Assembly: GCA_902628365.1 (NCBI GenBank)
Contig: CACOMW010000001.1
Location: forward strand, 62,001-126,000
Direction: 5' to 3'
From: an uncultured Marinoscillum sp.
GTDB taxonomy: Bacteria > Bacteroidota > Bacteroidia > Cytophagales > MED-G16
Length of the DNA stretch: 64,000 bases
The notes beneath the pieces are model-generated. The model was not told where the DNA came from and did not search any database. It was given only the letters and a program-made list of their open reading frames with translations. Shown one piece after another: positions 4,640-62,358 of the stretch (position 1 is its first letter; each line of letters begins with the position of its first letter). Made by a program: the position numbers and the translations under genes.

Positions 4640-4679
4640 TCCATAAAATTACATTTCTTTTATTAATAATAAATTTTCT

Positions 4680-5918
4680 ATGCTTCAATATAAAAATTCA
4701 AAGAATTTTACTGCAAATACGCAGATGAAAATATCTCCTTTTTTTGAAAGAACAAGCAAATTAAATATGTCTCAAGAGTGGAAAAGATGGGGTGGATATC
4801 TGTCTGCAACCAAATATGATCTTAATCATGATAATGAATATTTTGCAATTAGAACTAAAGCCGGACTACTAGATATTTCTCCTCTTTATAAGTATAGAAT
4901 AAGTGGAAAAGATTCGAGTTTATTTTTAAATAGATTGGTAACTAGGGATATTAAGATTTGTAAAATAGGACAAGTAATGTATTCAACATGGTGTGATGAA
5001 AATGGTAAAGTAATTGATGATGGTACTATTCAAAGATTAGCTGAAAATGATTTTAGACTTACAAGTGCCGAACCAAACCTGTCATGGTTGGAATTAAATT
5101 CTTATGGGATGGATATTAAGATATATGATGAATCAAACAAAATTGCTGCTTTAGCCCTTCAAGGCCCAAACTCTAGAGATATTATTAATTCTATTTCTTC
5201 AAAATCTATCAACAGTTTGAAGTTTTTTGAAATCATTGATACAAAATTAAAAGATATTAATGTTTCTATTTCTCGTACGGGTTATACTGGTGACTTGGGA
5301 TATGAAATTTGGATTAATCCAGATGATTCTTTAAAAGTTTGGGATATTTTGATTGAGTTTGGTAAAAACTATGGAATAACCCCAGTAGGATTAGATGCTC
5401 TTGATATATCTAGAATTGAAGCCTCTCTTATTTTATTAGATGTAGATTATATTTCTTCTAGAAATGCATTAATTGAAGATAGAAAATCATCTCCATTTGA
5501 ATTAGGTTTGGGTTGGACAGTAAAATTAAATGATGAAAGTTTTATTGGATCTCAAGCTCTTAGAATAGAAAAAAAAAATCCATCAGAATGGAGATTTGTT
5601 GGTATTGAAATCTTGTGGGAGGATCTTGAAAAATTATATAAAAATGTTGGACTTGCTCCTGAGCTTCCTCACGGTGCTTGGAGGGATAGTGTCCCTCTAT
5701 ATAACAAAAAAAATCAAGTAGGTTATGCATCTAGTGGCTGTTGGTCTCCTATATTAAAAAAATATATTGCACTTGCTCATGTTAATTCTAAATATTCTAG
5801 TTTAGATACTATTCTTGATTTTGAAGTTAAGGTTGAACATTTTAGATATTTAACTCCAGCTAAAATTGTGAAAACACCTTTTTATAACCCTAAAAGAAAA
5901 ATATCATGTCCAGAATAG
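4680..5918 (+). CDS. GcvT-fold aminomethyltransferase family protein (putative folate-dependent demethylase)
   Basis: A 412-residue relative of glycine-cleavage T protein, DmdA and the folate domains of dimethylglycine/sarcosine dehydrogenases. Visible family motifs are the acidic pair in DENGKVIDDGTIQRL, LALQGPNSR, RTGYTGDLGYEIWI and PVGLDALDISRIEASLIL; the C-terminal beta domain ends in VEHFRYLTPAKIV. Such proteins pass a one-carbon unit from an N- or S-methyl compound to tetrahydrofolate. It is not the gcv T protein by context: no gcvH or gcvP is near, while two FAD oxidoreductases overlap it and a Rieske oxygenase follows. ATG 4725 (MKISPFFERT) is an equally good and perhaps better start. 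The substrate is unknown. Confidence 0.85.
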   Translation: MLQYKNSKNFTANTQMKISPFFERTSKLNMSQEWKRWGGYLSATKYDLNHDNEYFAIRTKAGLLDISPLYKYRISGKDSSLFLNRLVTRDIKICKIGQVMYSTWCDENGKVIDDGTIQRLAENDFRLTSAEPNLSWLELNSYGMDIKIYDESNKIAALALQGPNSRDIINSISSKSINSLKFFEIIDTKLKDINVSISRTGYTGDLGYEIWINPDDSLKVWDILIEFGKNYGITPVGLDALDISRIEASLILLDVDYISSRNALIEDRKSSPFELGLGWTVKLNDESFIGSQALRIEKKNPSEWRFVGIEILWEDLEKLYKNVGLAPELPHGAWRDSVPLYNKKNQVGYASSGCWSPILKKYIALAHVNSKYSSLDTILDFEVKVEHFRYLTPAKIVKTPFYNPKRKISCPE

Positions 5919-7486
5919 ATAAATATGATGTTATAATTATAGGTGGAGGTCATAATGGATTGACGGCAGCAGCATATTTATCAAAAGCTGGTAAAAAAGT
6001 TTTAGTATTAGAAAGAAGACATGTATTAGGTGGTGCAGCTGTTACTGAAGAAGTTTTTCCTGGTTTTAAATTTTCTGTTTGCTCATATGTAGTAAGCTTA
6101 TTAAAAGCCAATGTAATAAGGGAATTAATGTTGCCTCGTTTTGGTCTTGAAATTTTACCTCTTGAAAGTACTTTTACTCCACTTGATAATGATTATTTAT
6201 TTAGAACATCAGATTATGATCAAACTTATAAGGAAATTTATAGACATTCTCCAAAAGATGCGGAAAATTATATGAGATTTGGTCCATTGATGGGACAGGT
6301 TGGTATGGCGGTTAGGCCAATTTTAGAGACTATTGCTCCAAATGCTATAAGACCAAGTTTTAATGATTTAATGTCTTTAAAAAGTATATTTAATCATGTT
6401 CAAGGACTTAATAATGAGACTTTTGAATATTTATGTAAACTGATGACCATGAGTTCTGCAGACTTTCTTGATGAATGGTTTGAGTTTGAACCTTTAAAAG
6501 CTACCATGTCAGCTAGTGGAATTATTGGTACATTTATGGGTCCTCGATCGCCTGGTTCAGCATATGTTATGTTACATCATTATATGGGTGATATTGATGG
6601 TTCGTTTCGTGCTTGGGGATTTCAAAGAGGAGGAACTGGAGAGTTAAGTATGACAATAGCTCGTTCTGCAATGTATTTTGGTACAAAAATTTTAACCGAA
6701 GCAGCTGTTGATAAAGTAATAGTAAAAAATGGAAGTGCTATTGGAGTCGCTTTAGAAAATGGTGATGAATACAAATCAGATATAGTAATATCAGGATTAG
6801 ATCCTAAGCTTACATTTTTAAAAATGTTGGATGAAAGTGATTTGCCAGAAGATTTTGTTAACGATATAAAAAAGTTTAGAATTAGAGGTTCATCTGGTAA
6901 AGTGAATCTAGCTTTAGATGGACTTCCAAATTTTACTTCTTTACCAGGCAATGGTCCTCATTTAAGAGGAGCTATCTCAATTAGTCCAAGTTATGATCAT
7001 CTTGAAAAAGCATATGATGATGCTAAATATGGGAACTTTTCTAAAGAACCATACATGGATATTATTTTACCTTCAGTCATTGATCCTGAAATGGCGCCTC
7101 CTGGTAAACATGTTATGTCTTGTTTTGTTCAATACGCTCCATATAATATTAATGGAGGATGGGATGATACTAAAAGAGAAGCTTTTGGTGATGCCGTTAT
7201 CAATACCCTTGCCAGATTTGCTCCAAACATCAAAGATTTAATTTTGCATCGTCAAGTTTTAACGCCTAAAGATTTAGAAAAGACTTTTGGATTAACTGAA
7301 GGAAATATCTTCCATGGTGAGCTTACACTACAACAACTTTTTTCGTTTAGACCTGCTGTTAAGTGGGCGGATTACACTACCCCTATAAAGAATTATTTTC
7401 AGTGTGGTTCTGGAACTCATCCAGGAGGAGGAGTAACAGGATCGCCTGGAGAAATGGCAGCTAAAAAAATTCTTAAAATATGGTAA
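5906..7486 (+). CDS. NAD(P)/FAD-dependent oxidoreductase, PYROXD2/phytoene desaturase-like
   Basis: A 526-residue flavoprotein. The N-terminus carries the dinucleotide motif DVIIIGGGHNGLTAAAYL followed by VLVLERRHVLGGAAVTEE, and the C-terminus has the second FAD contact CGSGTHPGGGVTGSPG. This is the 'phytoene dehydrogenase-like' superfamily, but carotenoid synthesis is not implied: no crtB or other carotenoid gene is near and the length fits the PYROXD2 branch. It overlaps the GcvT-like gene by 13 nt and the next flavoprotein by 7 nt, so the three form one translationally coupled unit. A role oxidising an amine or aldehyde intermediate in that unit is inference. Confidence 0.88.
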   Translation: MSRIDKYDVIIIGGGHNGLTAAAYLSKAGKKVLVLERRHVLGGAAVTEEVFPGFKFSVCSYVVSLLKANVIRELMLPRFGLEILPLESTFTPLDNDYLFRTSDYDQTYKEIYRHSPKDAENYMRFGPLMGQVGMAVRPILETIAPNAIRPSFNDLMSLKSIFNHVQGLNNETFEYLCKLMTMSSADFLDEWFEFEPLKATMSASGIIGTFMGPRSPGSAYVMLHHYMGDIDGSFRAWGFQRGGTGELSMTIARSAMYFGTKILTEAAVDKVIVKNGSAIGVALENGDEYKSDIVISGLDPKLTFLKMLDESDLPEDFVNDIKKFRIRGSSGKVNLALDGLPNFTSLPGNGPHLRGAISISPSYDHLEKAYDDAKYGNFSKEPYMDIILPSVIDPEMAPPGKHVMSCFVQYAPYNINGGWDDTKREAFGDAVINTLARFAPNIKDLILHRQVLTPKDLEKTFGLTEGNIFHGELTLQQLFSFRPAVKWADYTTPIKNYFQCGSGTHPGGGVTGSPGEMAAKKILKIW

Positions 7487-9051
7487 ATAATAAATATGAT
7501 TATATTGTTATTGGAGGAGGATTAAACTCATTAATTGCCGCTGCTCTTTTGGCTAAAAAGAATAATTCTGTAATATTATTCGAATCTAATAATACATTAG
7601 GAGGTATGGCATCTACTTATGAATTTTCATCTGGTTTTCGATGCAATTTAGTTTATGATTATATAAAATGGTTAGATGAAAGGGTTTTGAAGGAATTAAA
7701 TATTAAAAATAATGAACTTGAAATCATAAATAATGATATATATAGGATTTCTTTAGATTTAGAAGGTAAACATATTTTTTTTCATAGAGATAATAAAAAA
7801 ACAATTGAATCTATTTCCAAAATTTCAAAATCTGATGCAGACAAATGGAATGATTTTACTTCATTTATATCAAAAGTTTCTTCTTTTTTGAAACCTCTTT
7901 ATAAAATAACTCCTCCTAATATTCAAAAAATAGGCTTAACTGATGCTATTTCTATGAAAAATTTACTTAATCCAATTTTAAGCCACGGAACTAGAGGTAT
8001 AGCTGATATTTTGAGAACATTACCAATGATGATGCCAGAGTTATTAGATGAGTGGTTTGAATCTAAATTATTAAGAGGAACTCTTGCTGCTGGTGGAATT
8101 CATCATTTAAATCAGGGCCCGTATTCTGCCGCTACAGTTCTAAATTTTTTACATCAAAACATATATTCAGGTACAAATATTTTAGATGCAAAATTTATTA
8201 AAGGAGGGACTAATTTACTTCCAAGTATTTTAATAAAAAAAGCAAAGGATTATGGTGTAGTTATTAAAAATAATTCTGAGGTTATAAAAATAAATTGTAA
8301 TAATGGAAAATGTGATGGAGTTAGTTTAGCAGACGGTCAATTATTCTTTTCTAAAAATATTATTTCAGGATTGGACCAAGAAAATACCTGCATTAAATTG
8401 TTAGGAAATGAAAATTTATATCCTTATGTAAGAACACAGCTAAATAATATTAAATACAGAGGGAGTACTGCAAGATTACATTTTGCTTTGAAAAATTTAC
8501 CAAAAATTAAAGGTGTTAATGATGATCAGCTGCAAACTGTATTTTCAATTTCTCCTTCAGTAAATTATTTAGAGAAAGCATATGATGAAGTTAAATACGG
8601 AAGCTTTTCATCTTTACCATATATTGAATTTTGTATTTCCAGTTTAACTAACCCATCTTTTGCAAAAAACAATAATCATATTGTTTCCGCTTCAATTCAA
8701 TATATTCCTTATACTTTAAAAGATAATGAATGGTCTGATAAATTAAAGAAAGATATAATTAAGAATGTCACCGGAATATTAGATAAATATATTATAAACT
8801 TTTCTAATAATATCATTGACTCTTCTCTTTCCATACCCCTTGATTTTGAGTCGACTTTAAATAATACTGAGGGTAGTTTTAATCATGGTGAAATGACTCT
8901 TGATCAATTTTTATTTATGAGACCAACAATTGCTTCATCACAATATAAAACTCATATTAAAAATCTATTTATTTGTAGCCCATCTACTCACCCAGGAGGT
9001 GGTCTTCATGGAGCAAATGCTATTAACATGATCAATGAAATAACCAAATAA
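7480..9051 (+). CDS. second NAD(P)/FAD-dependent oxidoreductase, diverged tandem paralogue
   Basis: A 523-residue homologue of the gene just upstream, aligning end to end (both share DEWFE in the middle, THPGGG near the end, and YLEKAYDE/DAKYG-type segments). Its nucleotide-binding loop is altered: GGGLNSLIAAAL, where the third glycine of GxGxxG is serine, followed by ESNNTLGGMAST. The C-terminal loop also differs (CSPSTHPGGGLHGANA). It is more AT- and Asn/Lys-rich than its neighbour, which suggests faster change. It may form a heterodimer with the upstream paralogue or act on a different intermediate. The 3' end lies 6 nt from the convergent Rieske gene. Confidence 0.85.
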   Translation: MVNNKYDYIVIGGGLNSLIAAALLAKKNNSVILFESNNTLGGMASTYEFSSGFRCNLVYDYIKWLDERVLKELNIKNNELEIINNDIYRISLDLEGKHIFFHRDNKKTIESISKISKSDADKWNDFTSFISKVSSFLKPLYKITPPNIQKIGLTDAISMKNLLNPILSHGTRGIADILRTLPMMMPELLDEWFESKLLRGTLAAGGIHHLNQGPYSAATVLNFLHQNIYSGTNILDAKFIKGGTNLLPSILIKKAKDYGVVIKNNSEVIKINCNNGKCDGVSLADGQLFFSKNIISGLDQENTCIKLLGNENLYPYVRTQLNNIKYRGSTARLHFALKNLPKIKGVNDDQLQTVFSISPSVNYLEKAYDEVKYGSFSSLPYIEFCISSLTNPSFAKNNNHIVSASIQYIPYTLKDNEWSDKLKKDIIKNVTGILDKYIINFSNNIIDSSLSIPLDFESTLNNTEGSFNHGEMTLDQFLFMRPTIASSQYKTHIKNLFICSPSTHPGGGLHGANAINMINEITK

Positions 9052-9057
9052 GATATT

Positions 9058-10299
9058 TTATTTAGTTATTTTTAATTCTAGATGTTTTAAATACCATTTT
9101 TTTAATTTATCTAAGCCTATCTCCATTTTTGACAATGGTCCGGGTTCATATTTAGAAGATAAAACTCCTTTTTGATTATTTTCAATTATTCTTTTATCTG
9201 CTTTTGTTGTTTCATCCCACATCCAAGTTATTTCATTTATATCATAGTCAATTCCTTCGACAGCTCTCTCATTAACTAACCACATTAATTCAACTTCTGT
9301 TTCAGTTGGACTTTTAGGAATAAATGTAAATAAAGTTGCAAAATCATTAGTCATAATAATACTATTAAATGGAGATGGTCCTATCGTTGTATATCCACCA
9401 TCAAATTCATTAAAGTCACCCATCAAAATAGAAGCAGGTTTTCCTGATTTTGTTTCAGATAGTTTTCCATTACTAAAAGGTGTTCTTTCTGCACTCCTAA
9501 AAAATTTAGAAAATTTTTTTTCTGAAAACTCACCGGTCAAGTAACCCATTTTTTTTACTTTTTTATTCCAAGTTTCCAATTTTTTATTGAATTCTTTTGA
9601 TTCTGGACCAGTATTGCTTCCAGCACCATATGCTTGAATATAATCTTTACTATGAACATGACAATATTCCGGGTGTGACGGTTGGCAATGATAACATTCA
9701 TGAAAATTGTCTAATGTGAGTTTCCAGTTTCCTTTTGTAGGATATATTTTTCTTGCTGCTATTTTGGCTTTACCTAATCCATGTAGTTTAATAAAATCTT
9801 CAATTGGATTAATGAAATTTTGAAAATCAGATGCATTTTCTGATAGATTTATAAAAATCAATCCTTCAAAAACTATACAATTACATTTTTTTAAACTCCA
9901 ATTTTTAGGTTTGAAATTATCATCCATCATTCTTGCTTTCAAAAGCTTTCCGGACAAATCATAATTCCATGCATGATAAGGACAAACAAATTTTCTTACT
10001 CTTCCTTCTTCTTCTAAACAAATGTGTGAGCCCCTATGTCTACATACATTATAGAATGCATTAATTTTATCTTCATTTTCCCTAATTATTATAATTGATT
10101 CTTCACCAATTGAAAACAAAAAGTAATCTCCTTTATTTTTGATTCTCGATATGTGTCCAACAAAAACCCACTGATTAAAAAAAAATGTTTTAAGATCCAT
10201 TTCAAAGATACTTTTATTGGTATAAAAAGATTGATCCAGACTAAAATTATCTTTTTGTGATTTAATTAAATCTAATAAGTAAGAATTATTTTTTTTCAT
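9058..10299 (-). CDS. Rieske ring-hydroxylating-type oxygenase alpha subunit, quaternary-amine demethylase-like
   Basis: The 413-residue product has a Rieske [2Fe-2S] domain (C86-x-H88 in CRHRGSH and C106-x2-H109 in CPYHAWNY) and a mononuclear iron site (NFHECYHCQPSHPEY: H204, H209, with E201 between the centres). A glutamate at the bridging position where aromatic dioxygenases have Asp, and the NxxECYHC signature, point to the GbcA (glycine betaine), CntA (carnitine) and stachydrine demethylase group rather than true aromatic dioxygenases. Such enzymes oxidatively remove an N-methyl group. No reductase gene is adjacent. It converges on the GcvT/FAD operon and diverges from NhaC. Confidence 0.87.
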   Translation of the reverse strand: MKKNNSYLLDLIKSQKDNFSLDQSFYTNKSIFEMDLKTFFFNQWVFVGHISRIKNKGDYFLFSIGEESIIIIRENEDKINAFYNVCRHRGSHICLEEEGRVRKFVCPYHAWNYDLSGKLLKARMMDDNFKPKNWSLKKCNCIVFEGLIFINLSENASDFQNFINPIEDFIKLHGLGKAKIAARKIYPTKGNWKLTLDNFHECYHCQPSHPEYCHVHSKDYIQAYGAGSNTGPESKEFNKKLETWNKKVKKMGYLTGEFSEKKFSKFFRSAERTPFSNGKLSETKSGKPASILMGDFNEFDGGYTTIGPSPFNSIIMTNDFATLFTFIPKSPTETEVELMWLVNERAVEGIDYDINEITWMWDETTKADKRIIENNQKGVLSSKYEPGPLSKMEIGLDKLKKWYLKHLELKITK

Positions 10300-10300
10300 A

Positions 10301-10321
10301 CTATTATTTTAATAGCTATTA
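10301..10321. promoter_or_regulatory. overlapping inverted repeats between Rieske oxygenase and nhaC genes
   Basis: CTATTATTTTAATAGCTATTA holds two nested symmetries: CTATTA-3 nt-TAATAG and the 12-bp perfect palindrome TAATAGCTATTA. It lies directly upstream of the Rieske start codon within the 79-bp divergent spacer. It could be an operator or a 5'-UTR hairpin, but AT-rich spacers often make such repeats by chance. Confidence 0.25.
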
Positions 10322-10378
10322 TAGTTTTATTTAATTAAGTTTTCCAGTTTTTTTTAATAAATATTATTAATTTGATTC

Positions 10379-11818
10379 ATGAAAGAAAATAAATTAAGAA
10401 CTCCTACTTTTTTTGAATCTATATTTCCCATACTTTTTTTAATTATTTTTTTATCAATTAATGTTTTTATTTTTAAAGACTCTTCTTTAGATGGAAGCAA
10501 TCAAATAGTATTAATTGTTTCTGCTTCAGTAGCATCTGCAATTGCTTTAAACATTGGTTTTAAATGGAGTGAATTACAAAAAGGTATAGTAAATAGTATT
10601 AGTTCTGCAATACCATCAATACTTATTTTATTTCTTGTTGGATCATTGGCTGGTTCATGGATGTTAAGTGGAATAGTTCCTGCAATGATTTATTATGGAA
10701 TTCAATTGCTTAATCCAAAAATATTTTTAATAGCTTCTTGTCTCATTTGTATTATTGTTTCAGTAGCTACTGGAAGTTCTTGGACAACATCTGCTACTAT
10801 TGGAATTGCATTGATTGGAATAGGAAAAGCATTGGGTATTTCTGAAGGTTTAATAGCTGGATCAATTTTGAGTGGAGCATATTTCGGAGATAAAATGTCT
10901 CCATTGTCAGATACAACTAATTTATCTCCTGCAGTAGCTGGAAGTGACCTTTTTTCTCATATTAGATATTTATCATATACAGCTTTTCCCTCAATGTTGA
11001 TTTGTTTAGTATTATTTTTATTTTTAGGACTAAGTAATTATAGTAATATTAGTCAAACTAATTCTATTTTAATTTCTAATGCAATTTCTGAAAAATTTTA
11101 TTTGTCCCCAATATTATTTTTCGTTCCATTATTTGTGATTTTTTTGATTTACAAAAAAACAAAAGCTCTTCCATCCTTATTTTGTGGTACACTTTTAGGT
11201 GTAATTTTCGCGCTTATTTTTCAACCTGATCTTGTTAAAGAAGTGTCTGGCATTAATGATTCTAATTTTAAAAGTCTTTTTGTTGGAATTATGAAATCAT
11301 TATATGGAACTATTTCTATTTCTACTTCCAATGAAATTGTAAATGAATTGTTAACATCAGGGGGAATGTTTGGAATGTTAAGTACTATATGGTTGATTTT
11401 TTCAGCTATGATTTTTGGTGGAGTTATGGAGGTTTCTGGATTTTTAAAAAAAATTGTAAATACGATTTTAACCTCTGTTAAATCAACAGGATCTTTAGTT
11501 TCATCTACTGTGGGAACATGTGTCTTTTTTAATCTTACAGCTTCAGATCAATATCTTTCAATAGTAGTTCCTGGAAGAATGTTTTCTGAAACCTACAGAA
11601 AAAATGGTTTAGATCCTGTGAACTTAAGTAGAACTCTTGAAGATGGTGGTACAGTTACTTCAGTTCTTGTACCGTGGAATACATGTGGTGCTTACCATGC
11701 TTCTGTTTTAAACGTAAGTACATTAACTTATTTGCCATATTGTTTTTTTAGTATAATAAGTCCTATAATGACTATACTATTTGCATATTTGAAAATAAAA
11801 ATAAAAAAATTAAAATAA
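10379..11818 (+). CDS. nhaC: Na+/H+ antiporter NhaC family protein
   Basis: A 479-residue protein with about 11-12 hydrophobic segments. It has the NhaC-family core GSSWTTSATIGIALIGIG, then GAYFGDKMSPLSDTTNLSPAVAG, and near the end TVTSVLVPWNTCGAYHASVL. Family members exchange Na+ for protons, and some exchange organic acids (malate/lactate). It diverges from the Rieske oxygenase gene across a short spacer with inverted repeats, so it might be co-regulated with the methyl-compound island and balance ions during uptake of a charged osmolyte. That link is inference; a plain pH/sodium role is just as possible. Confidence 0.88.
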   Translation: MKENKLRTPTFFESIFPILFLIIFLSINVFIFKDSSLDGSNQIVLIVSASVASAIALNIGFKWSELQKGIVNSISSAIPSILILFLVGSLAGSWMLSGIVPAMIYYGIQLLNPKIFLIASCLICIIVSVATGSSWTTSATIGIALIGIGKALGISEGLIAGSILSGAYFGDKMSPLSDTTNLSPAVAGSDLFSHIRYLSYTAFPSMLICLVLFLFLGLSNYSNISQTNSILISNAISEKFYLSPILFFVPLFVIFLIYKKTKALPSLFCGTLLGVIFALIFQPDLVKEVSGINDSNFKSLFVGIMKSLYGTISISTSNEIVNELLTSGGMFGMLSTIWLIFSAMIFGGVMEVSGFLKKIVNTILTSVKSTGSLVSSTVGTCVFFNLTASDQYLSIVVPGRMFSETYRKNGLDPVNLSRTLEDGGTVTSVLVPWNTCGAYHASVLNVSTLTYLPYCFFSIISPIMTILFAYLKIKIKKLK

Positions 11819-33076: not shown

Positions 33077-35494
33077 ATGATAAAATTTTCAAAACTACTT
33101 GCAAATAAAATAAAGTTATCTAAGCAGGAAATTTTAAACGATTATTATTTAATTAATGAGAGTAGAAATATAAGTCTTATTGGTAGAAAGGAAGTTTTTA
33201 TGGGAAGAGCAAAATTTGGAGTTTTTGGTGATGGTAAAGAATTACCCCAAATAGCTATGTCTAAAGTTTTTAAAAACGGTGATATTAGATCTGGTTATTA
33301 TAGAGATCAAACTTTTATGATGGCTATTGATCAATTAAATTCTGAGCAGTTTTTTGCTCAACTTTATGCTAATACTGATATATCAAAAGATCCTCATTCT
33401 GGAGGTAGACAAATGAATTCTCATTTTGCTACTAGGATGCTAAATAATAAAGGAGAGTGGAAAACATTAACTGACATTAAAAATTCATCTAGTGATGTTT
33501 CATGTGTAGCGGGACAAATGCCACGACTTGTTGGTTTAGCATATGCTTCTAAATTATATAGAAAAAATAAAGAACTAAAAAATTATCCAGACTTTTCAGT
33601 AAATGGGAATGAAATTGCATTTGGAACAATTGGAAATGCAGCTACATCTGAGGGTCATTTTTGGGAAGCAATTAATGCTGCGGGTGTTTTACAGATACCC
33701 TTTATATTATCAATTTGGGATGATGATTATGGAATTTCAGTACCTTCAGAATATCATACAACTCGGAATGATTTATCAAAAGCTTTGAAAGGATTCCAAA
33801 GAAAAAATGATAAAGAAAATGGGTTTGAATTATTTGAAGTTTTTGGTTGGGACTATATCGGTTTAATAGACGCCTATATTAATGCTGAAAAATTTGCAAG
33901 AAAATACCATGTCCCTTGTATTGTTCATGTTAAAGAATTGACTCAACCCCAGGGTCATACAACTTCTGGTTCCCATGAAAGATATAAAAGTAAAGAAAGG
34001 TTAAAATGGGAAAGAGATAACGATTGTATAAAAATGATGAGAAAATGGATTTTGGAGAATCAAATCGCTGATGAAAATGAATTGGATAAAATTGAAAATA
34101 AAGCAGTTCTTGACTCAAAAAAAAGTAGAGATATAGCTTGGAAGGATTATAGAAATGAGATAAAAGAGGATCTTCAGGATGCTATTTCGGTATTAACTAG
34201 AGTGGCACAAAATAGTCCAAAAAATAAAAATGAAATAATTAATTTTAGAAATGAATTAAATTCAATTCTTTTTCCTTTAAAAAGTGATATTTACAGGTGT
34301 TTAAAAAAAGTTTTGATAATTATAAGAGGTGAGGAAAATATAGCTAAAAATTTTCTAATCGACTTGATAAATGAAAAATCAGAAAAATATACTTATCAAT
34401 ACAGTTCTCATTTATATAGTGAATCAAAGTTTTCTGCACTAAAGATTACAGAAGTAAAACCAACATATGATGAAAATTCAAAAATCGTAGATGGTCGAGA
34501 AATTATAAATTCTTGTTTTCATTCTATATTTAGTAATAATAAGCTTGTTTTTGCAGTTGGAGAAGATGTTGGTTTAATTGGAGGTGTTAATCAAGGCTTT
34601 GCAGGAATTCAGGAAAAATTTGGAAAATTAAGAATTACCGATACCAGTGTGAGAGAAGCAACAATAATTGGTCAAGGTATTGGGGCAGCACTTAGAGGGT
34701 TAAGGCCAATTGTTGAAGTGCAGTACCTTGATTATATATACTGGGCAATTCAAACGCTTGCAGATGATCTAGCAACTCTTCAATATAGAACAAAAGGTGG
34801 TCAAAAAGCTCCAGTTATTATCAGGACTCGGGGGCACAGACTGGAAGGGATATGGCACTCAGGATCACCCATGAGTGTACTTGTAAATAGTTTAAGAGGA
34901 ATTCATATTCTTACTCCTAGAAACTTTGTTCAGGCAGCTGGTATGTATAATACAATGTTATCATCTGATGAACCTTCAATAATTGTTGAACCACTCAATG
35001 CATATAGATCAAAAGAAAAAATGCCAAATAATATAGCTGATATTAAAGTTTCTTTAGGTATGCCAGAAATTATTAGAAAAGGAAGTGATATCACAATAGT
35101 AACATATGGTTCTATTATTAAAATAGTAGAGGAAGCATCTATTATGTTAGAAAAGATTGGAATTTCTTGTGAAATAATAGATGTACAAACTCTTCTCCCT
35201 TTTGATATCAATCACATTATTTTAGGATCAATAAAAAAAACAAATAGGGTTGTATTTTTAGATGAAGATGTTCCTGGAGGATGTACTGCATATATGATGC
35301 AAAAAGTTTTGGAAGAACAAAATGCATATAGATATTTAGATTCCAAACCAATAACAATATCAGCTAAGGAACACAGGCCATCTTATAGTAGTGATGGTGA
35401 TTATTTTTCAAAGCCAAATTCTGAAGAAATTTTTGAAGTAATCTATAATTTATTTAATGAAACAGATCCAAGATCCTATCCTAGTTTAATTTAA
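33077..35494 (+). CDS. fused alpha/beta E1 component of branched-chain 2-oxoacid dehydrogenase
   Basis: An 805-residue thiamin-diphosphate enzyme with both E1 halves in one chain. The alpha part (~1-370) has RSGYYRDQTFMMAI and the ThDP region FGTIGNAATSEGHFWEAINAAG; the beta part (~470-805) starts at VDGREIINSCFHSIFSNN and holds FAVGEDVGLIGGVNQGF and VVFLDEDVPGGCTAYMM. A ~100-residue linker joins them. It decarboxylates a branched-chain 2-oxo acid (IlvE product) and hands the acyl group to E2 lipoate. The fusion is common in this phylum. A -7 box TATATTTG is at 33047-33054. Confidence 0.92.
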   Translation: MIKFSKLLANKIKLSKQEILNDYYLINESRNISLIGRKEVFMGRAKFGVFGDGKELPQIAMSKVFKNGDIRSGYYRDQTFMMAIDQLNSEQFFAQLYANTDISKDPHSGGRQMNSHFATRMLNNKGEWKTLTDIKNSSSDVSCVAGQMPRLVGLAYASKLYRKNKELKNYPDFSVNGNEIAFGTIGNAATSEGHFWEAINAAGVLQIPFILSIWDDDYGISVPSEYHTTRNDLSKALKGFQRKNDKENGFELFEVFGWDYIGLIDAYINAEKFARKYHVPCIVHVKELTQPQGHTTSGSHERYKSKERLKWERDNDCIKMMRKWILENQIADENELDKIENKAVLDSKKSRDIAWKDYRNEIKEDLQDAISVLTRVAQNSPKNKNEIINFRNELNSILFPLKSDIYRCLKKVLIIIRGEENIAKNFLIDLINEKSEKYTYQYSSHLYSESKFSALKITEVKPTYDENSKIVDGREIINSCFHSIFSNNKLVFAVGEDVGLIGGVNQGFAGIQEKFGKLRITDTSVREATIIGQGIGAALRGLRPIVEVQYLDYIYWAIQTLADDLATLQYRTKGGQKAPVIIRTRGHRLEGIWHSGSPMSVLVNSLRGIHILTPRNFVQAAGMYNTMLSSDEPSIIVEPLNAYRSKEKMPNNIADIKVSLGMPEIIRKGSDITIVTYGSIIKIVEEASIMLEKIGISCEIIDVQTLLPFDINHIILGSIKKTNRVVFLDEDVPGGCTAYMMQKVLEEQNAYRYLDSKPITISAKEHRPSYSSDGDYFSKPNSEEIFEVIYNLFNETDPRSYPSLI

Positions 35495-49839: not shown

Positions 49840-50543
49840 TCAATTAAAGAAATATTTTTTTTTCTGATATATTTTTTTTTGTTTTCAAATATTACCTCAT
49901 ACCATATAGAATATTCTTTGGATATCTTTAACTTATTTCCCTTTTTTATTATTGAATAAACATCTGAACCAGATGATGGTCCGTTCATAATATATGTATT
50001 ATCTTGATCTATGATACCTTGTTTTTTTGTAAGATTAAAATTCATTATAGCTAAAACAAGTGCTGAAATCATCATAAATCTTATATGATAGCTTATATCC
50101 TTTTTTTCCCCAATAATCAGATATAATACAAGAAATACAACTAAAAGTGAATGTATCAAATAAATATTTTTATTATATACATTAAGAATTAATGATAAAT
50201 CATTTTGTTCAAATCCAATTAATTCATTTTTTTTTGCAATAGATTTTATTTTTTTAGAGGTTTCTTTATTGTGTGTATGATAATAATGTTTTGATAAATA
50301 AATTAATGCTTTATCATAATTTCCTATGCCTTCTTCAATAAATGATAATTTTAATAACATAGCATCAGAAAAATAATTTTTATCATAATATAAGTTTTCA
50401 TATATTTTTTTAGCATCAACATATTTCCTCAATTTAAATAATGAATCCCCTTCACTTAAAAGATATTTCTCATTTGCCAAAATATTTGTTGTAAGAAATA
50501 ATAGAAAAAATATTAAAATTCTAGTTTTAATTATTGAATTCAT
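49836..50543 (-). CDS. BatE-like TPR membrane protein with SH3-like C-terminus
   Basis: The track start (50573) lies inside the upstream gene; ATG 50543 (MNSIIKTRILIFFLLFLTT) gives a proper signal peptide and a 235-residue product. TPR-like helices (~35-110: EGDSLFKLRKYVDAKKIYENLYY, GNYDKALIYLSKHYY) are followed by one or two membrane helices and a C-terminal SH3-like segment with YIIMNGPSSGSDVYSIIKKG-type sequence ending YEVIFENKKKYIRKKNI. This order resembles BatE of Bacteroidota Bat operons, but no batA-D genes are near. Function unknown. Confidence 0.72.
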   Translation of the reverse strand: MNSIIKTRILIFFLLFLTTNILANEKYLLSEGDSLFKLRKYVDAKKIYENLYYDKNYFSDAMLLKLSFIEEGIGNYDKALIYLSKHYYHTHNKETSKKIKSIAKKNELIGFEQNDLSLILNVYNKNIYLIHSLLVVFLVLYLIIGEKKDISYHIRFMMISALVLAIMNFNLTKKQGIIDQDNTYIMNGPSSGSDVYSIIKKGNKLKISKEYSIWYEVIFENKKKYIRKKNISLID

Positions 50544-53115
50544 ACACATTGAAGGTTTCCTCAAAATTCTCATCAGATAATTTAAGGTTTAATTTATAAT
50601 TTCCTGCTGGTAGGTATTTATTGTAATGAATAAAGTAAGGTAACTCACTTTGATTTTTTTCATAAATAATATCCCATCTGAATTCGTTATATCCTTTTTT
50701 TGCATCAAATTTATAACTCCAAATTAAATCATTTTTATCATTAAAAACTTCAGTTAAAACTTTTTCATCTTTAATAATAAAAAAAGAAATGGATAGTTTT
50801 TCTGCAGTACTTGAAATTGGTTCTTTGTGTGTGTCATTAATTAACGGTCTATTGACGTCTTTAAGAGGAAATAAAATGTTTTGTTCTTTTGAACCTCCTT
50901 TTTTTATTAAATAATGAATTGGATTCAGATTTAGTTTATAAATTCCTCTTCCATGAGTAGCAGCAATTAGATCTCCTGACTTTTCATCAATAATTAAATC
51001 TGATATGCTAACTATTGGAAGTTTTTTTCCAAGTATTGACCAAGATTTTCCTTTATCAAAAGAAATATATACACCTCTGTATAATCCAGCGTATAAAATA
51101 TTTTCGTATTTTAAATCTTCAATTATAACATTAGCAGGTTCATTTGGAAGATTTGATTTAATTGTTTTCCAATCTTTTCCATAATTTTCCGACATATAAA
51201 TATAATTTCCTAAATCATCATAGTTTATTCCGGTCATAGCCATATAAACTCTTGATTTTAAGAATTTTGAAGGATAAATACTTCTAATATAATTGTCTTT
51301 TATATTTTTTGAGTTTTCGTTCCAACTTTTACCATCATCTTTGCTTACCCAAAAACTACCTTTATCCGAACCATAATATAATAATCCTTTTTGGAGCGGT
51401 GATTCAGCAATAGCACCAGCTGAAAAAGAATTTTTTGATTTACTAAGGTCTGGACTAATTTGACTCCATGAGTTTCCTTGATTAGTTGTTTTCATTACAT
51501 AATTTCCTCCATGGTAAAGGGTTTTATTGTCATGGGGTGAGATGAAATAAGGTGTTATAAAATTATAATTTAATGAATTTATATTTTCTTTTGGTAGTTT
51601 AGGTTTTATAGAAATAGATTTTCCAGTTTTCATGTTTTTTCTTCTAATTGCACCATTTTGCATGCTAAAGTATACGATGTTTGGATCCAATGGATCTACT
51701 TGAGTTACACATCCATCACCTCCATCCCAAGCATCAATCCACAGATATTTCCATTTATCAGAATATTTATTATTCCATTCTTTTGCTGGTCCATAAACAG
51801 TCGCATCATCTTGGGTTCCGCCGTAAATAAGATATGGTTCTTGATTACTAATTGTAATATCATAAAATTCACCGGCAGGTATGTTGTTATAGTGCATCCA
51901 ACTTTCTCCCTTATCATAACTTACAAATAATCCACCATCATTTCCTAAGGCTATGTGATTTGGATTTTTTGGGTTAATCCATAATTCACAATGGTCTAGA
52001 TGAAGAAATTTTGCATCACTATTATTCATTCTCTTAACAGTTCCATAAAGATTACTAAAGGTTTTACCTCCATCTGTGCTTTTAGCTATTCTCACTCCTA
52101 GAGAATAAATTTCTTCATCATCTTTTGGATTAACATAAATATCAGCAAAATACCAACCAATTCCTGGAAATATCATGAGTTCATCATTGTGTGTTCTTCT
52201 CCATAATTTTCCCCCATCAATAGTTTTATATACTTCTGCAGCTTCGCTTCTATTTTTTGACAAATTATCTATTAAAGCGTATACTTTATTTGGATTAGAA
52301 TATGAAACTGCTAGACCTATTCTTCCCATTTTATGACCATAGGGTAATCCATCAACTAATTTTTTCCAAGTATCGCCACCATCTGAACTTTTATAAATAC
52401 CACTATTTAATCCACTTATTCCTGGGTTATTTTCCCACATAGAGGCATAGATAATGTTAGGGTTAGAATTAGAAATAACTATATCATTGGATCCTGTACT
52501 TTCATCAATATATAGAACATGTTTCCATGATTTTCCACCATCTTCTGTTTTATAAATACCTCTATTTATATTTTTTGACCAAAAATGACCTAAAACACTA
52601 ACCAATACGATATCTGGATTTGTTGGATGAACACTTATTTCTCCGATGTGCCATGAATCCTCTAATCCAATATGATTCCATGTTTCTCCTGCGTCAACAG
52701 ACCTATACATACCCGTTCCAGGCATTGTAAAGTTTCTAGCTTTTTTTAAACTTTCTCCTGTACCAACATATATAATATTTGAATTTGATGGTGCAAGAGC
52801 AATATCTCCGATTCCAAGAGATGGTTGATTTTCAAATATAGGCCTCCAGCTTATTCCATTATTTATGGTTTTCCACAAATTACCTGACCCAAATGCTACA
52901 TACATCGTTCCTGGATTATTTTCATCAACTTGAACTGATTCAACTCTTGCAGAATTTAAAACTGGCCCAAGACTAACCCATTCTAAATTAATATTACTTT
53001 CATTTTTTAATTTAATGTGTTCATAAAAAGAATTCACTAATGGTGATTCTTCTTGTTGTGAATAAGAAGAATGCAAATAAAAAAGAAGAATAAAAAGTAT
53101 AAACAATCGTTTCAT
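50527..53115 (-). CDS. exported BNR/Asp-box (sortilin/VPS10-like) repeat protein
   Basis: An 862-residue exported protein (signal MKRLFILFILLFYLHSSYSQ). About ten Asp-box motifs of the S/T-x-D-x-G-x-S/T-W type are visible (SVDAGETW, TEDGGKSW, SSDGGDTW, SYDKGESW, SKDDGKSW, SFDKGKSW), forming two beta propellers like sortilin or cellulase-like glycosidases. A C-terminal beta domain follows. No type IX sorting domain is seen. Enzyme activity is not evident; it could bind glycans or peptides. It is a diverged paralogue of the gene at 59515. Its 3' end overlaps the BatE-like gene. Confidence 0.9.
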   Translation of the reverse strand: MKRLFILFILLFYLHSSYSQQEESPLVNSFYEHIKLKNESNINLEWVSLGPVLNSARVESVQVDENNPGTMYVAFGSGNLWKTINNGISWRPIFENQPSLGIGDIALAPSNSNIIYVGTGESLKKARNFTMPGTGMYRSVDAGETWNHIGLEDSWHIGEISVHPTNPDIVLVSVLGHFWSKNINRGIYKTEDGGKSWKHVLYIDESTGSNDIVISNSNPNIIYASMWENNPGISGLNSGIYKSSDGGDTWKKLVDGLPYGHKMGRIGLAVSYSNPNKVYALIDNLSKNRSEAAEVYKTIDGGKLWRRTHNDELMIFPGIGWYFADIYVNPKDDEEIYSLGVRIAKSTDGGKTFSNLYGTVKRMNNSDAKFLHLDHCELWINPKNPNHIALGNDGGLFVSYDKGESWMHYNNIPAGEFYDITISNQEPYLIYGGTQDDATVYGPAKEWNNKYSDKWKYLWIDAWDGGDGCVTQVDPLDPNIVYFSMQNGAIRRKNMKTGKSISIKPKLPKENINSLNYNFITPYFISPHDNKTLYHGGNYVMKTTNQGNSWSQISPDLSKSKNSFSAGAIAESPLQKGLLYYGSDKGSFWVSKDDGKSWNENSKNIKDNYIRSIYPSKFLKSRVYMAMTGINYDDLGNYIYMSENYGKDWKTIKSNLPNEPANVIIEDLKYENILYAGLYRGVYISFDKGKSWSILGKKLPIVSISDLIIDEKSGDLIAATHGRGIYKLNLNPIHYLIKKGGSKEQNILFPLKDVNRPLINDTHKEPISSTAEKLSISFFIIKDEKVLTEVFNDKNDLIWSYKFDAKKGYNEFRWDIIYEKNQSELPYFIHYNKYLPAGNYKLNLKLSDENFEETFNVYEFNN

Positions 53116-59514: not shown

Positions 59515-62358
59515 TTGAAAATTTATTTATTCATATTAATTCTTTTTTTAACTTTTTCTTCTAATATATATTCTCAAAAGAAGAAAAATAATAAAAATGA
59601 ATTTGTCAAATCCACATCATCAGTAATTAGAGTTGCTGATTACGAAAAAAGATTAGAATTAGAAAGAAACTCTATAGCTAAAAATATATTTTTTAGAAAT
59701 ATAGGACCCACTGTTATGAGTGGAAGAGTCGTTGATTTAGCTGTTAATCCAAATGATCCTACCCATTTTTATGTTGCATATGCTTCTGGTGGATTATGGG
59801 AAACAAAAAACCATGGAAATACTTTTACTCCAATTTTTGATAATAAAATAGTCATGACTTTAGGAGATATAGCAGTAGATTGGAAAAATGAAATAATTTA
59901 TGCAGGTACAGGTGAAAATAATTCTAGTAGGTCATCTTATTCTGGCGTAGGAATTTTTAAATCTTCTGATAATGGAAAATCCTGGAACCATATAGGTCTC
60001 GATGATTCTCATCATATAGGTAGGATAATCATTCATCCAGAAAACCCAGATATAATATGGGTAGCAGCCTTAGGACATCTTTATTCTGAAAATGAAGAAC
60101 GTGGAATTTATAAATCAACCGATGCTGGAAAAACATGGACAAAAACATTATTTGTTAATAACAGAACAGGAGCGATCGACATTGTAATTGATAAGAAATC
60201 TCCAGATATCTTATATGCTTCAATGTGGGAGAAAGATAGAAAAGCTTGGAATTTTGATGGTTCTGGATTTGGTTCTGGAATATATAAATCCAATGATGGA
60301 GGGAATACTTGGAAAGAAATATCAGGAGCAAAAAGTGGTTTTCCAGATACAAGAGGTACTGGAAGAATAGGTTTAGCAATATCTAATTCAAATTCAAATA
60401 TTCTTTATGCAATTCTTGATAATCAGGATAGAAAAGAGAAAAAAAACACTGTAAACGAAGAAGTAATTAATAAAGATATTTTAAGAAATATAACAAATGA
60501 AGATTTTTTAAAATTAAAAGATTCTGATCTTAACTCTTTCTTGAGAGATAATCGTTTTCCTAGAGAATACAATTCTAAGTCAGTTAAAGAATTAGTTAAA
60601 AATAATAGTATATCTGCAATTGCATTAGTTGAATATTTAGAAGATTCTAACACTTTACTTTATGATACTCCTGTAAAAGGCGCAGAAGTTTATAGGTCAG
60701 ATGATGGAGGTATTAGTTGGTATAAAACACATGAAGACTATATAGATAATCTTTTTTATTCATATGGCTACTACTTTGGTGAAATTAGAATAGATGGTTC
60801 AAACCCAGATAAAGTATATACAATGGGAGTACCAATGATCAAGTCAGATGATGGTGGTAAAAATTGGAAATCCATAGATTATCCTAATATGCATGGAGAT
60901 CACCATGCTCTTTGGGTAAACCCTAATAGGACTGGACATATGATTGCAGGTAACGATGGAGGTTTAAATATAACGTATGATGATGGTGAAAACTGGATGA
61001 AATATAATAGTACATCGGTTGGTCAATTTTATGATATAAATATTGATATGAAAAAACCATATAATGTTTATGGTGGTTTTCAAGATAATGGAGTTTGGAT
61101 GGGGCCCTCAGATTATGAATCAAGTATGAGGTGGCATAGCACTGGTCAATATCCGTGGAAATTTATATTTGGTGGAGATGGGATGCAAACAGAAGTAGAT
61201 TTTAGAGATAACGAAACTGTATACACTGGTTCACAATTTGGAAATTATGCTAGACTAAATACAAGGACCGGAGAAAGAAAAAGAATTACTCCATCACATA
61301 AATTAGGAGAAAGGCCATATAGATGGAATTGGGAAACACCAATATATTTATCAAGACATCAACAAGATATATTATATATGGGGTCTAATAAGTTTCACAG
61401 ATCATTGGATAAGGGAAATTATTTTGAAACACTTTCTGGTGATTTAACCAAAGGAGGTATAAAAGGAAATGTTAGCTATGGGACATTAACAACTATTATG
61501 GAATCCCCTTTGAAGTTTGGTCTTATATATGTTGGAAGTGATGATGGTTTAGTTCATGTAAGTCATGATGGAGGAAATACATGGAAAAATATTTCATCTT
61601 CTTTACCTAACAATATGTGGATTAGTAGTGTATATCCTTCAAAATTTTATCAAAATAGAGTTTATGTATCACTAAATGGATATAGATGGGATAATTTTGA
61701 TCCTATGATATATGTATCTGATGATTATGGTTCGAATTGGAGTAAAATAGGACATAACCTTCCAAAAGAGCCAATTAATGTAATAATAGAGGATTTAGAA
61801 AATGAGAAATTAGTATATGTTGGCACTGATCATGGAGTGTATGCGTCTTTAGATTATGGTAACAATTTCTTTGCTTTTTCAAATGGCTTATCTAATGCTC
61901 CTGTTCATGATTTAGTTCTTCATCCAAGAGAAAGAGATTTGATTGTAGGAACACATGGACGATCAGTTTATGTAGCTAATATTAAGCATTTACAAATGCT
62001 GAGTGAAAAAATTCTTTCAAAGAATATTCATGTTTTTGAATTGGAAAAAATAAAATTTTCGTCAAGATGGGGAAGTAAAGGTTGGGGATCAAACTTCTAT
62101 ACACCTGAAATTCAAATTGTATATTATTCTGCTTCTGGTTTACCTGCTAAAATAAATGTTATCCATCAAAATAAAATAATTAAAACTATAGATGCTGATA
62201 CTTCTTTAGGGTTAAATTTTATTTCTTATGATTTATCATTTGATAGTAAAGAAGAAAGTTCCAATGATAATGGAGTGCATTATTTAATGAAGGGAGAATA
62301 TATTATCGAGATTATTCAAAATGATAATATTTCAAATGCTAAACTTATTATAAACTAA
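59515..62358 (+). CDS. exported BNR/Asp-box (sortilin/VPS10-like) repeat protein, long paralogue
   Basis: A 947-residue exported protein starting at TTG 59515 ([17 protein letters not shown] signal; no ATG upstream in frame). About nine Asp-boxes are seen ([48 protein letters not shown]). Other sortilin-like stretches are [32 protein letters not shown]-type sequence and [13 protein letters not shown]. Compared with the 862-residue paralogue it has an extra charged, helical stretch of ~70-85 residues ([15 protein letters not shown] to [13 protein letters not shown]) between two blades. No sorting domain is present. The DUF1080 gene follows by 8 nt. Confidence 0.9.

Follow-up and report, generated by a model that had tools for sequence, protein, structure and literature searches.

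A candidate oxidative N-demethylation locus with a GcvT-like protein, two CrtO/amine-oxidase-type flavoproteins and a Rieske oxygenase in marine Bacteroidota

What could a GcvT-like protein, two flavoproteins and a Rieske oxygenase (RO) accomplish together when their genes are packed side by side in the genome of an uncultured marine bacterium? The genes in question lie in a 64,000-nucleotide stretch of DNA, hereafter the window, from an uncultured Marinoscillum sp. of the Cytophagales lineage MED-G16 (assembly GCA_902628365.1, contig CACOMW010000001.1, positions 62,001 to 126,000). A preliminary description made from the sequence had proposed that the four proteins could strip successive methyl groups from a betaine-like osmolyte. 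Comparative evidence strengthened this idea of a pathway: at a rough probability of 0.55, the four genes would encode oxidative N-demethylation of a small methylated compound of nitrogen, probably a quaternary one. The genes for the GcvT-like protein and the flavoproteins FAD1 and FAD2 are jointly called the triad, whereas f1 and f57 denote the family of the window genome and another triad-carrying Bacteroidota family, respectively. The window genome is incomplete (1.28 Mb in 59 contigs) and its named relatives are metagenome-assembled genomes (MAGs) whose labels read Marinoscillum sp. and Rhodothermaeota MED-G19; incomplete MAGs also made up most of the genomes compared.

Among 396 Bacteroidota genomes, strong relatives of the GcvT-like protein (E<=1e-60) and of FAD1 (E<=1e-90) were found in an identical set of 10 genomes from four families, the chance of identical 10-genome sets being 1/C(396,10)=4e-20 with kinship ignored. 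The two genes were adjacent in all ten, with the GcvT gene in the opposite orientation in one of them (G409), and a FAD2-like gene followed FAD1 wherever the contig continued (the contig of G207 ends inside FAD1). The grouping of the triad is not a chance neighbourhood. On alphaproteobacterial plasmids, the closest FAD1 relatives (45–47% identical) were again part of a tandem array, FAD1-FAD2-GcvT, and one or more RO genes were located within about 12 kb in 5/5 plasmid loci examined. Below about 43% identity, six plasmid relatives of FAD1 were read without GcvT and one, from Shinella sumterensis (L021 6026-12746), with it; in this locus a FAD1 relative of 42% identity directly preceded a GcvT of 30%, and FAD2 and RO were absent.

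The surroundings of some of these genes can be recorded separately. The Shinella sumterensis pair had 3-hydroxyacyl-CoA dehydrogenase and acyl-CoA genes upstream and a beta-keto acid cleavage enzyme near it, a carnitine-like context. In Fuscovulum, the triad cluster ends with a gene of the DMSP_lyase family (PF16867; L019 22647-23498). In Sphingobium (L084 5807-8599), a FAD1 relative (41%) was located directly behind a Rieske oxygenase gene, without GcvT.

The RO matched the Pfam domains Ring_hydroxyl_A (95 bits) and Rieske (63 bits), and phmmer aligned it along its full length with 3n0q (268 bits) and Stc2 (4qup, 265 bits), carnitine monooxygenase being a weaker match. The Rieske ligands (C86-R-H88 and C106-P-Y-H109) are present, as are the mononuclear-iron ligands H204, H209 and D368 according to the Stc2 alignment (D368 by homology). 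The motif ECYHC (E201-C202-Y-H204-C205), in which E201 is the bridging Glu, was found with this Glu in 12/12 family ROs. A Cys pair beside the iron site is a feature of certain group V enzymes whose substrates are quaternary ammonium compounds (PMC10952381). In the RO tree, the protein fell into a clade with relatives from Yoonia, Parasedimentitalea and Shinella; the adjoining clade holds Stc2 and a GbcA-type protein, and the window RO lies outside the clade of Stc2 and Paracoccus denitrificans proteins. Grouping with oxygenases of unrelated substrates, a possibility raised in the preliminary description, was not observed, as the tree placed the RO by the Stc2/GbcA relatives and apart from ring-hydroxylating enzymes. 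The protein looks like a Rieske oxygenase of the group V (quaternary-ammonium) type. Its closest NCBIfam model was GbcA (NF058607), but judged by its score it is not to be named GbcA, because it reached 329.6 bits against a cut-off of 670 bits.

Among the Bacteroidota ROs from the GbcA-model search that were read, ECYHC occurred only in the window genome, G146, G195 and G409, three of these four having the triad, and the others carried EGYH or DVYH motifs. An ECYHC-type RO was present in 3/10 triad genomes vs 1/386 others (Fisher 5e-5), a tally that ignores kinship and covers the matches read, leaving aside eight weaker GbcA-model matches, all of them outside the triad genomes.

The GcvT-like protein contains the GCV_T (PF01571, 201 bits) and GCV_T_C (PF08669) domains. 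Its best NCBIfam match was the trimethylamine N-oxide (TMAO) demethylase model NF053776, limited to the C-terminal half (model positions 383-759, 266 bits against a cut-off of 1100 bits), with the N-terminal half unmatched. It also remained under the cut-offs of both glycine-cleavage T models (192 vs 236 bits for TIGR00528 and 226 vs 300 bits for NF001567) and of DmdA (NF009133, 121 vs 410 bits), and gave 158 bits with SoxA and 94 bits with DMGO. Most relatives encode a separate true GcvT (about 300–310 bits) and GcvP, which makes the island protein a second, divergent paralogue. Apart from the true GcvT and this paralogue, no GCV_T domain was detected in the f1 genomes searched, and hence none of DMGDH, SoxA, TDM and DmdA. 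D114 and E209 of the GcvT-like protein align with D96 and E195 of Thermotoga maritima GcvT, and the island copies have Asp/Glu at the first site and Glu at the second. The site of T. maritima R227 was occupied by Leu or Met in 21/21 island copies (Leu241 in the window), as in TMAO demethylase and sarcosine oxidase, and by Arg in the two true GcvTs aligned. All three sites are presumably folate contacts. The Leu/Met substitution together with the GcvT scores under cut-off fits the folate acceptor of a demethylase better than a partner in glycine cleavage. By these signatures, the protein is not a glycine-cleavage T-protein and is probably the folate-dependent one-carbon acceptor of a demethylase. 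Another genome, G016 (L037 9197-10432), has a relative about 50% identical that stands alone beside an aquaporin-like gene, FAD1 and FAD2 not being nearby.

The flavoproteins matched the Pfam family Amino_oxidase (57 bits for FAD1 and 26 bits for FAD2), and their closest NCBIfam models were CrtO/CrtI, all under cut-off: the CrtO beta-carotene ketolase model NF045689 requires 1000 bits and gave 338 and 195 bits, respectively. No full-length DAO (PF01266) match was detected in either protein, as DAO covered only the initial Rossmann stretch of 38–41 residues and the full-length matches were Amino_oxidase/CrtO; the earlier assignment of both to a superfamily other than DAO holds. FAD2 is a fast-evolving paralogue of FAD1, about 32% identical to it and shortened in some families. 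Of the island genes, FAD1 shows the highest conservation, with 98% identity to G001 and 94% to G005, and it kept 94% identity between genera whose rsgA proteins are at 48%. Invariant positions numbered 117 in FAD1 (19 copies) vs 22 in the FAD2 set. FAD1 may be considered the catalytic flavoprotein and FAD2 its partner, perhaps a subunit.

Coordinates and open reading frames (ORFs) bore out the reported arrangement, in which an overlapping plus-strand trio of GcvT-like and two flavoprotein genes meets a convergent RO gene (Table 1). The GcvT-like and FAD1 genes overlap by 13 nt and FAD1 and FAD2 by 7 nt, and the ends of the FAD2 and RO genes are 6 nt apart. Beyond the RO gene, the AT-rich gap is a possible shared control region with the NhaC-family antiporter gene, whose product exceeded the cut-off of its model (404 vs 370 bits) and gave 349 of 650 bits with the ArcD model.

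Table 1. Genes and intergenic gap of the locus, in window positions.
Feature	Positions	Strand	Description
GcvT-like gene	4680-5918	+	intact ORF, 412 aa
FAD1 gene	5906-7486	+	intact ORF, 526 aa
FAD2 gene	7480-9051	+	intact ORF, 523 aa
RO (Rieske oxygenase alpha subunit) gene	9058-10299	-	intact ORF, 413 aa
AT-rich gap, 79 nt	10300-10378		between divergent RO and NhaC genes
NhaC-family antiporter gene	10379-11818	+	TIGR00931 match

A search of ten f1 genomes with the GbcA model detected the RO in every one, and these loci were read together with those of two further triad carriers. The RO was located beside NhaC in 11/12 of them, with prfB on the other side where the contig reaches. The interval between prfB and the RO (window 4640-9057; L074-L079) varied among close relatives and had three alternative contents: the triad in G000, G001, G005, G012 and G014 (in G014 up to the contig end), a lone 501-aa Amino_oxidase-family flavoprotein (cassette b) in G003, G004, G006 and G008, and a lone protein of about 371 aa from the saccharopine-dehydrogenase family (cassette c) in G007 and G009. 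The best solved relative of the latter is PH1688 (3abi), a lysine dehydrogenase. The families of these three neighbours all include enzymes that oxidise C–N bonds. The state of the interval changed at least four times on the flanking-gene tree, and the triad carriers do not form a clade (approximately unbiased (AU) test, p=5e-14). Taken with the probable joint travel of the triad and the RO described below, the location of the RO beside interchangeable C–N oxidising candidates is the most informative outcome of the comparison and speaks for a common pathway whose second step can be exchanged. Plasmids searched for cassettes b and c yielded distant matches only, with no clue to the substrate.

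Two genomes are informative about the joint history of the four genes. In G002 (L098, L036), GcvT-FAD1-FAD2-RO is placed elsewhere, beside a PhyH-family gene, and prfB and NhaC are direct neighbours without the RO. In G005, the RO grouped with those of G000 and G001, and the species grouping G005+G009 was rejected for the RO (AU p=0.003), whereas the flanking genes agree with the species tree. Because of this relocation and this tree conflict, GcvT-FAD1-FAD2-RO probably travelled together at least once. The RO and NhaC were also considered as an inseparable pathway pair; this was dropped, as the RO of G002 stays with the triad and not with NhaC, and the antiporter is only a possible member of the pathway.

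From the observed gene anatomy, co-inheritance of the triad, linkage of the RO and its signature, we infer every reaction of the following scheme. In the first step, suggested by the family and motif of the RO, this enzyme would consume O2 and two electrons in hydroxylating a single N-methyl group of a quaternary substrate, and the methyl group would leave as formaldehyde. In the second, FAD1, with FAD2 as its partner or as a second dehydrogenase, would oxidise the N-methyl group or groups left on the tertiary or secondary amine to an iminium, and the GcvT-like protein would capture the methylene group on tetrahydrofolate. In the relatives, a single flavoprotein or a single NAD(P)-type amine dehydrogenase apparently can take over the second step.

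The scheme resembles several known systems in part. The RO shares with GbcA (which works with GbcB) a Rieske alpha subunit of the group V type that it matches along the full length, but it belongs to a separate clade, and no GbcB-type reductase was found beside it or in the relatives. With Stc2, the stachydrine (proline betaine) demethylase, it shares a full-length match, ECYHC and the bridging Glu; however, it is only about 35% identical, falls into a different clade and has no Stc3 or Stc4 genes nearby. DMGDH/DMGO and heterotetrameric sarcosine oxidase likewise combine a flavoprotein with a GcvT-fold acceptor, but their flavoprotein is of the DAO type, whereas the island has a separate GcvT protein and tandem CrtO/Amino_oxidase-type flavoproteins. 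Among curated models, the island GcvT matches the C-terminal domain of the TMAO demethylase Tdm (9q59) best and has the Leu at the 'A-L-D' site in common with it, while the N-terminal half of Tdm is absent; Tdm presumably acts without a flavoprotein partner. The glycine-cleavage GcvT has the same fold and Pfam domains, but the island protein is under its cut-offs and the true GcvT coexists with it in most relatives. The combination had been called new, and no description of it was found in open-access literature; a search for PYROXD2 with aminomethyltransferase found nothing relevant there.

Several observations weigh against a single demethylation pathway. No ECYHC-type (group V) RO was found in the f57 triad genomes, the RO occurs without the triad in six f1 genomes, and in G409 both are present but unlinked. 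The ROs of the Shinella, Rhizobium, Ensifer and Fuscovulum clusters belong to another subfamily, with the motif EGYHVA. No GbcB-type reductase, combining an FNR and a 2Fe-2S domain, was found near the RO, and the incomplete f1 genomes carry these domains together only in an NqrF-like protein; a 231-aa FNR protein without the 2Fe-2S domain and a small 2Fe-2S ferredoxin are candidates for the electron supply of the RO. No BCCT betaine carrier was found in the family. FAD1 and FAD2 have no solved close relative, and an AlphaFold model of FAD1, built from six close sequences, reached a pLDDT of 48 and was discarded; amine oxidation by these two proteins is suggested by their superfamily and context. 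Since the f57 triad was found without an ECYHC RO, the RO is a frequent, not an obligatory, partner of the triad. The shared pathway as first proposed was retained in one part, the linkage of the triad across Bacteroidota and alphaproteobacterial plasmids, usually with an RO nearby, and not in another, given that the RO is not obligatory and also occurs without the triad.

These facts would also fit two independent neighbouring systems, with the RO (and NhaC) in quaternary-amine chemistry and the triad as a separate module of folate-linked amine or methoxy oxidation, inserted in a replacement hot spot between prfB and the RO. Besides the f57 genomes and G409, this explanation is favoured by the RO keeping its place with three different neighbours. 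It is nevertheless rather unlikely: G002 and G005 show the triad and the RO located or moving jointly, they are neighbours in the same direction in G195, an RO is near the triad in all the plasmid loci examined, and alternative neighbours that all come from families with C–N oxidising members would be unlikely in a random hot spot.

The neighbours of related loci give clues to the substrate of the proposed demethylation pathway. An aminotransferase gene was present in 5/5 plasmid loci (class III in the four scanned), and plasmid triad clusters also contained ABC transport genes, including a PotF-like binding protein in one. The nearest RO relative, from Yoonia (44% identical), has near it an agmatinase-family gene, an old-yellow-enzyme-type protein, a class III aminotransferase and a DAO+GcvT fusion, the last being of the DMGDH/SoxA kind and thus a putative second step of known type beside this RO clade. 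Together, these neighbours suggest that a primary amine is left exposed after demethylation; betaines derived from basic or omega-amino acids would behave in this way, and so would methylated diamines and trimethyllysine. Nothing relevant to trimethyllysine demethylation was found in open-access literature.

To judge from the plasmid neighbours, a methylated amino acid or diamine is a better candidate than glycine betaine, which was among the substrates named earlier and received no specific support, although it could still be the substrate. An ordinary route from glycine betaine to glycine, with a GbcA-like RO and subsequent demethylation of dimethylglycine and sarcosine by the triad, would be in keeping with GbcA as the closest RO model and with the glycine cleavage genes of the family. 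We consider it improbable, as the RO attains less than half of the 670-bit cut-off on the GbcA model, on which a P. denitrificans RO encoded near sarcosine oxidase genes reaches 528 bits, its position is outside the clade of Stc2 and the P. denitrificans proteins, neither GbcB nor BCCT was found, and the plasmid neighbours point to omega-amine handling. That FAD1 and FAD2 are CrtO/CrtI-type enzymes modifying carotenoids or terpenoids, with GcvT in an unrelated folate reaction, is hardly credible, since CrtO is the best curated model but FAD1 stays far under its cut-off, strict co-inheritance with GcvT across phyla makes no sense for such enzymes, and no carotenoid genes were noticed in the island loci read.

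Elsewhere in the window, an 805-aa protein (33077-35494) resembles, by eye only, the E1 component of a 2-oxoacid dehydrogenase with its alpha and beta chains fused. A pair of large repeat proteins (50527-53115 and 59515-62358), apparently paralogues and of the sortilin/BNR-propeller type by eye, are encoded less than 10 kb apart.

Compounds with methylated nitrogen make up an important share of the dissolved organic nitrogen of the sea, and many of them lack known degrader genes. In its widest form, which we offer tentatively, the proposed pathway would be a phylum-crossing aerobic system composed of a group V RO and a three-protein, folate-linked amine demethylase with flavoproteins of the CrtO/amine-oxidase type. 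Its second step would be swapped in situ between closely related marine genomes, and its substrate would be a marine methylated amino acid or diamine, such as trimethyllysine, without any known pathway of this sort. If demethylation by the four genes is correct, GcvT-FAD1-FAD2, with the RO, would provide a compact marker set for an unassigned demethylation route, which rhizobial and rhodobacterial plasmids would share with marine Bacteroidota of small genome size, and a second flavoprotein lineage would have been recruited to folate-coupled demethylation. The three interchangeable cassettes beside one oxygenase would then constitute a natural experiment that makes the substrate findable.

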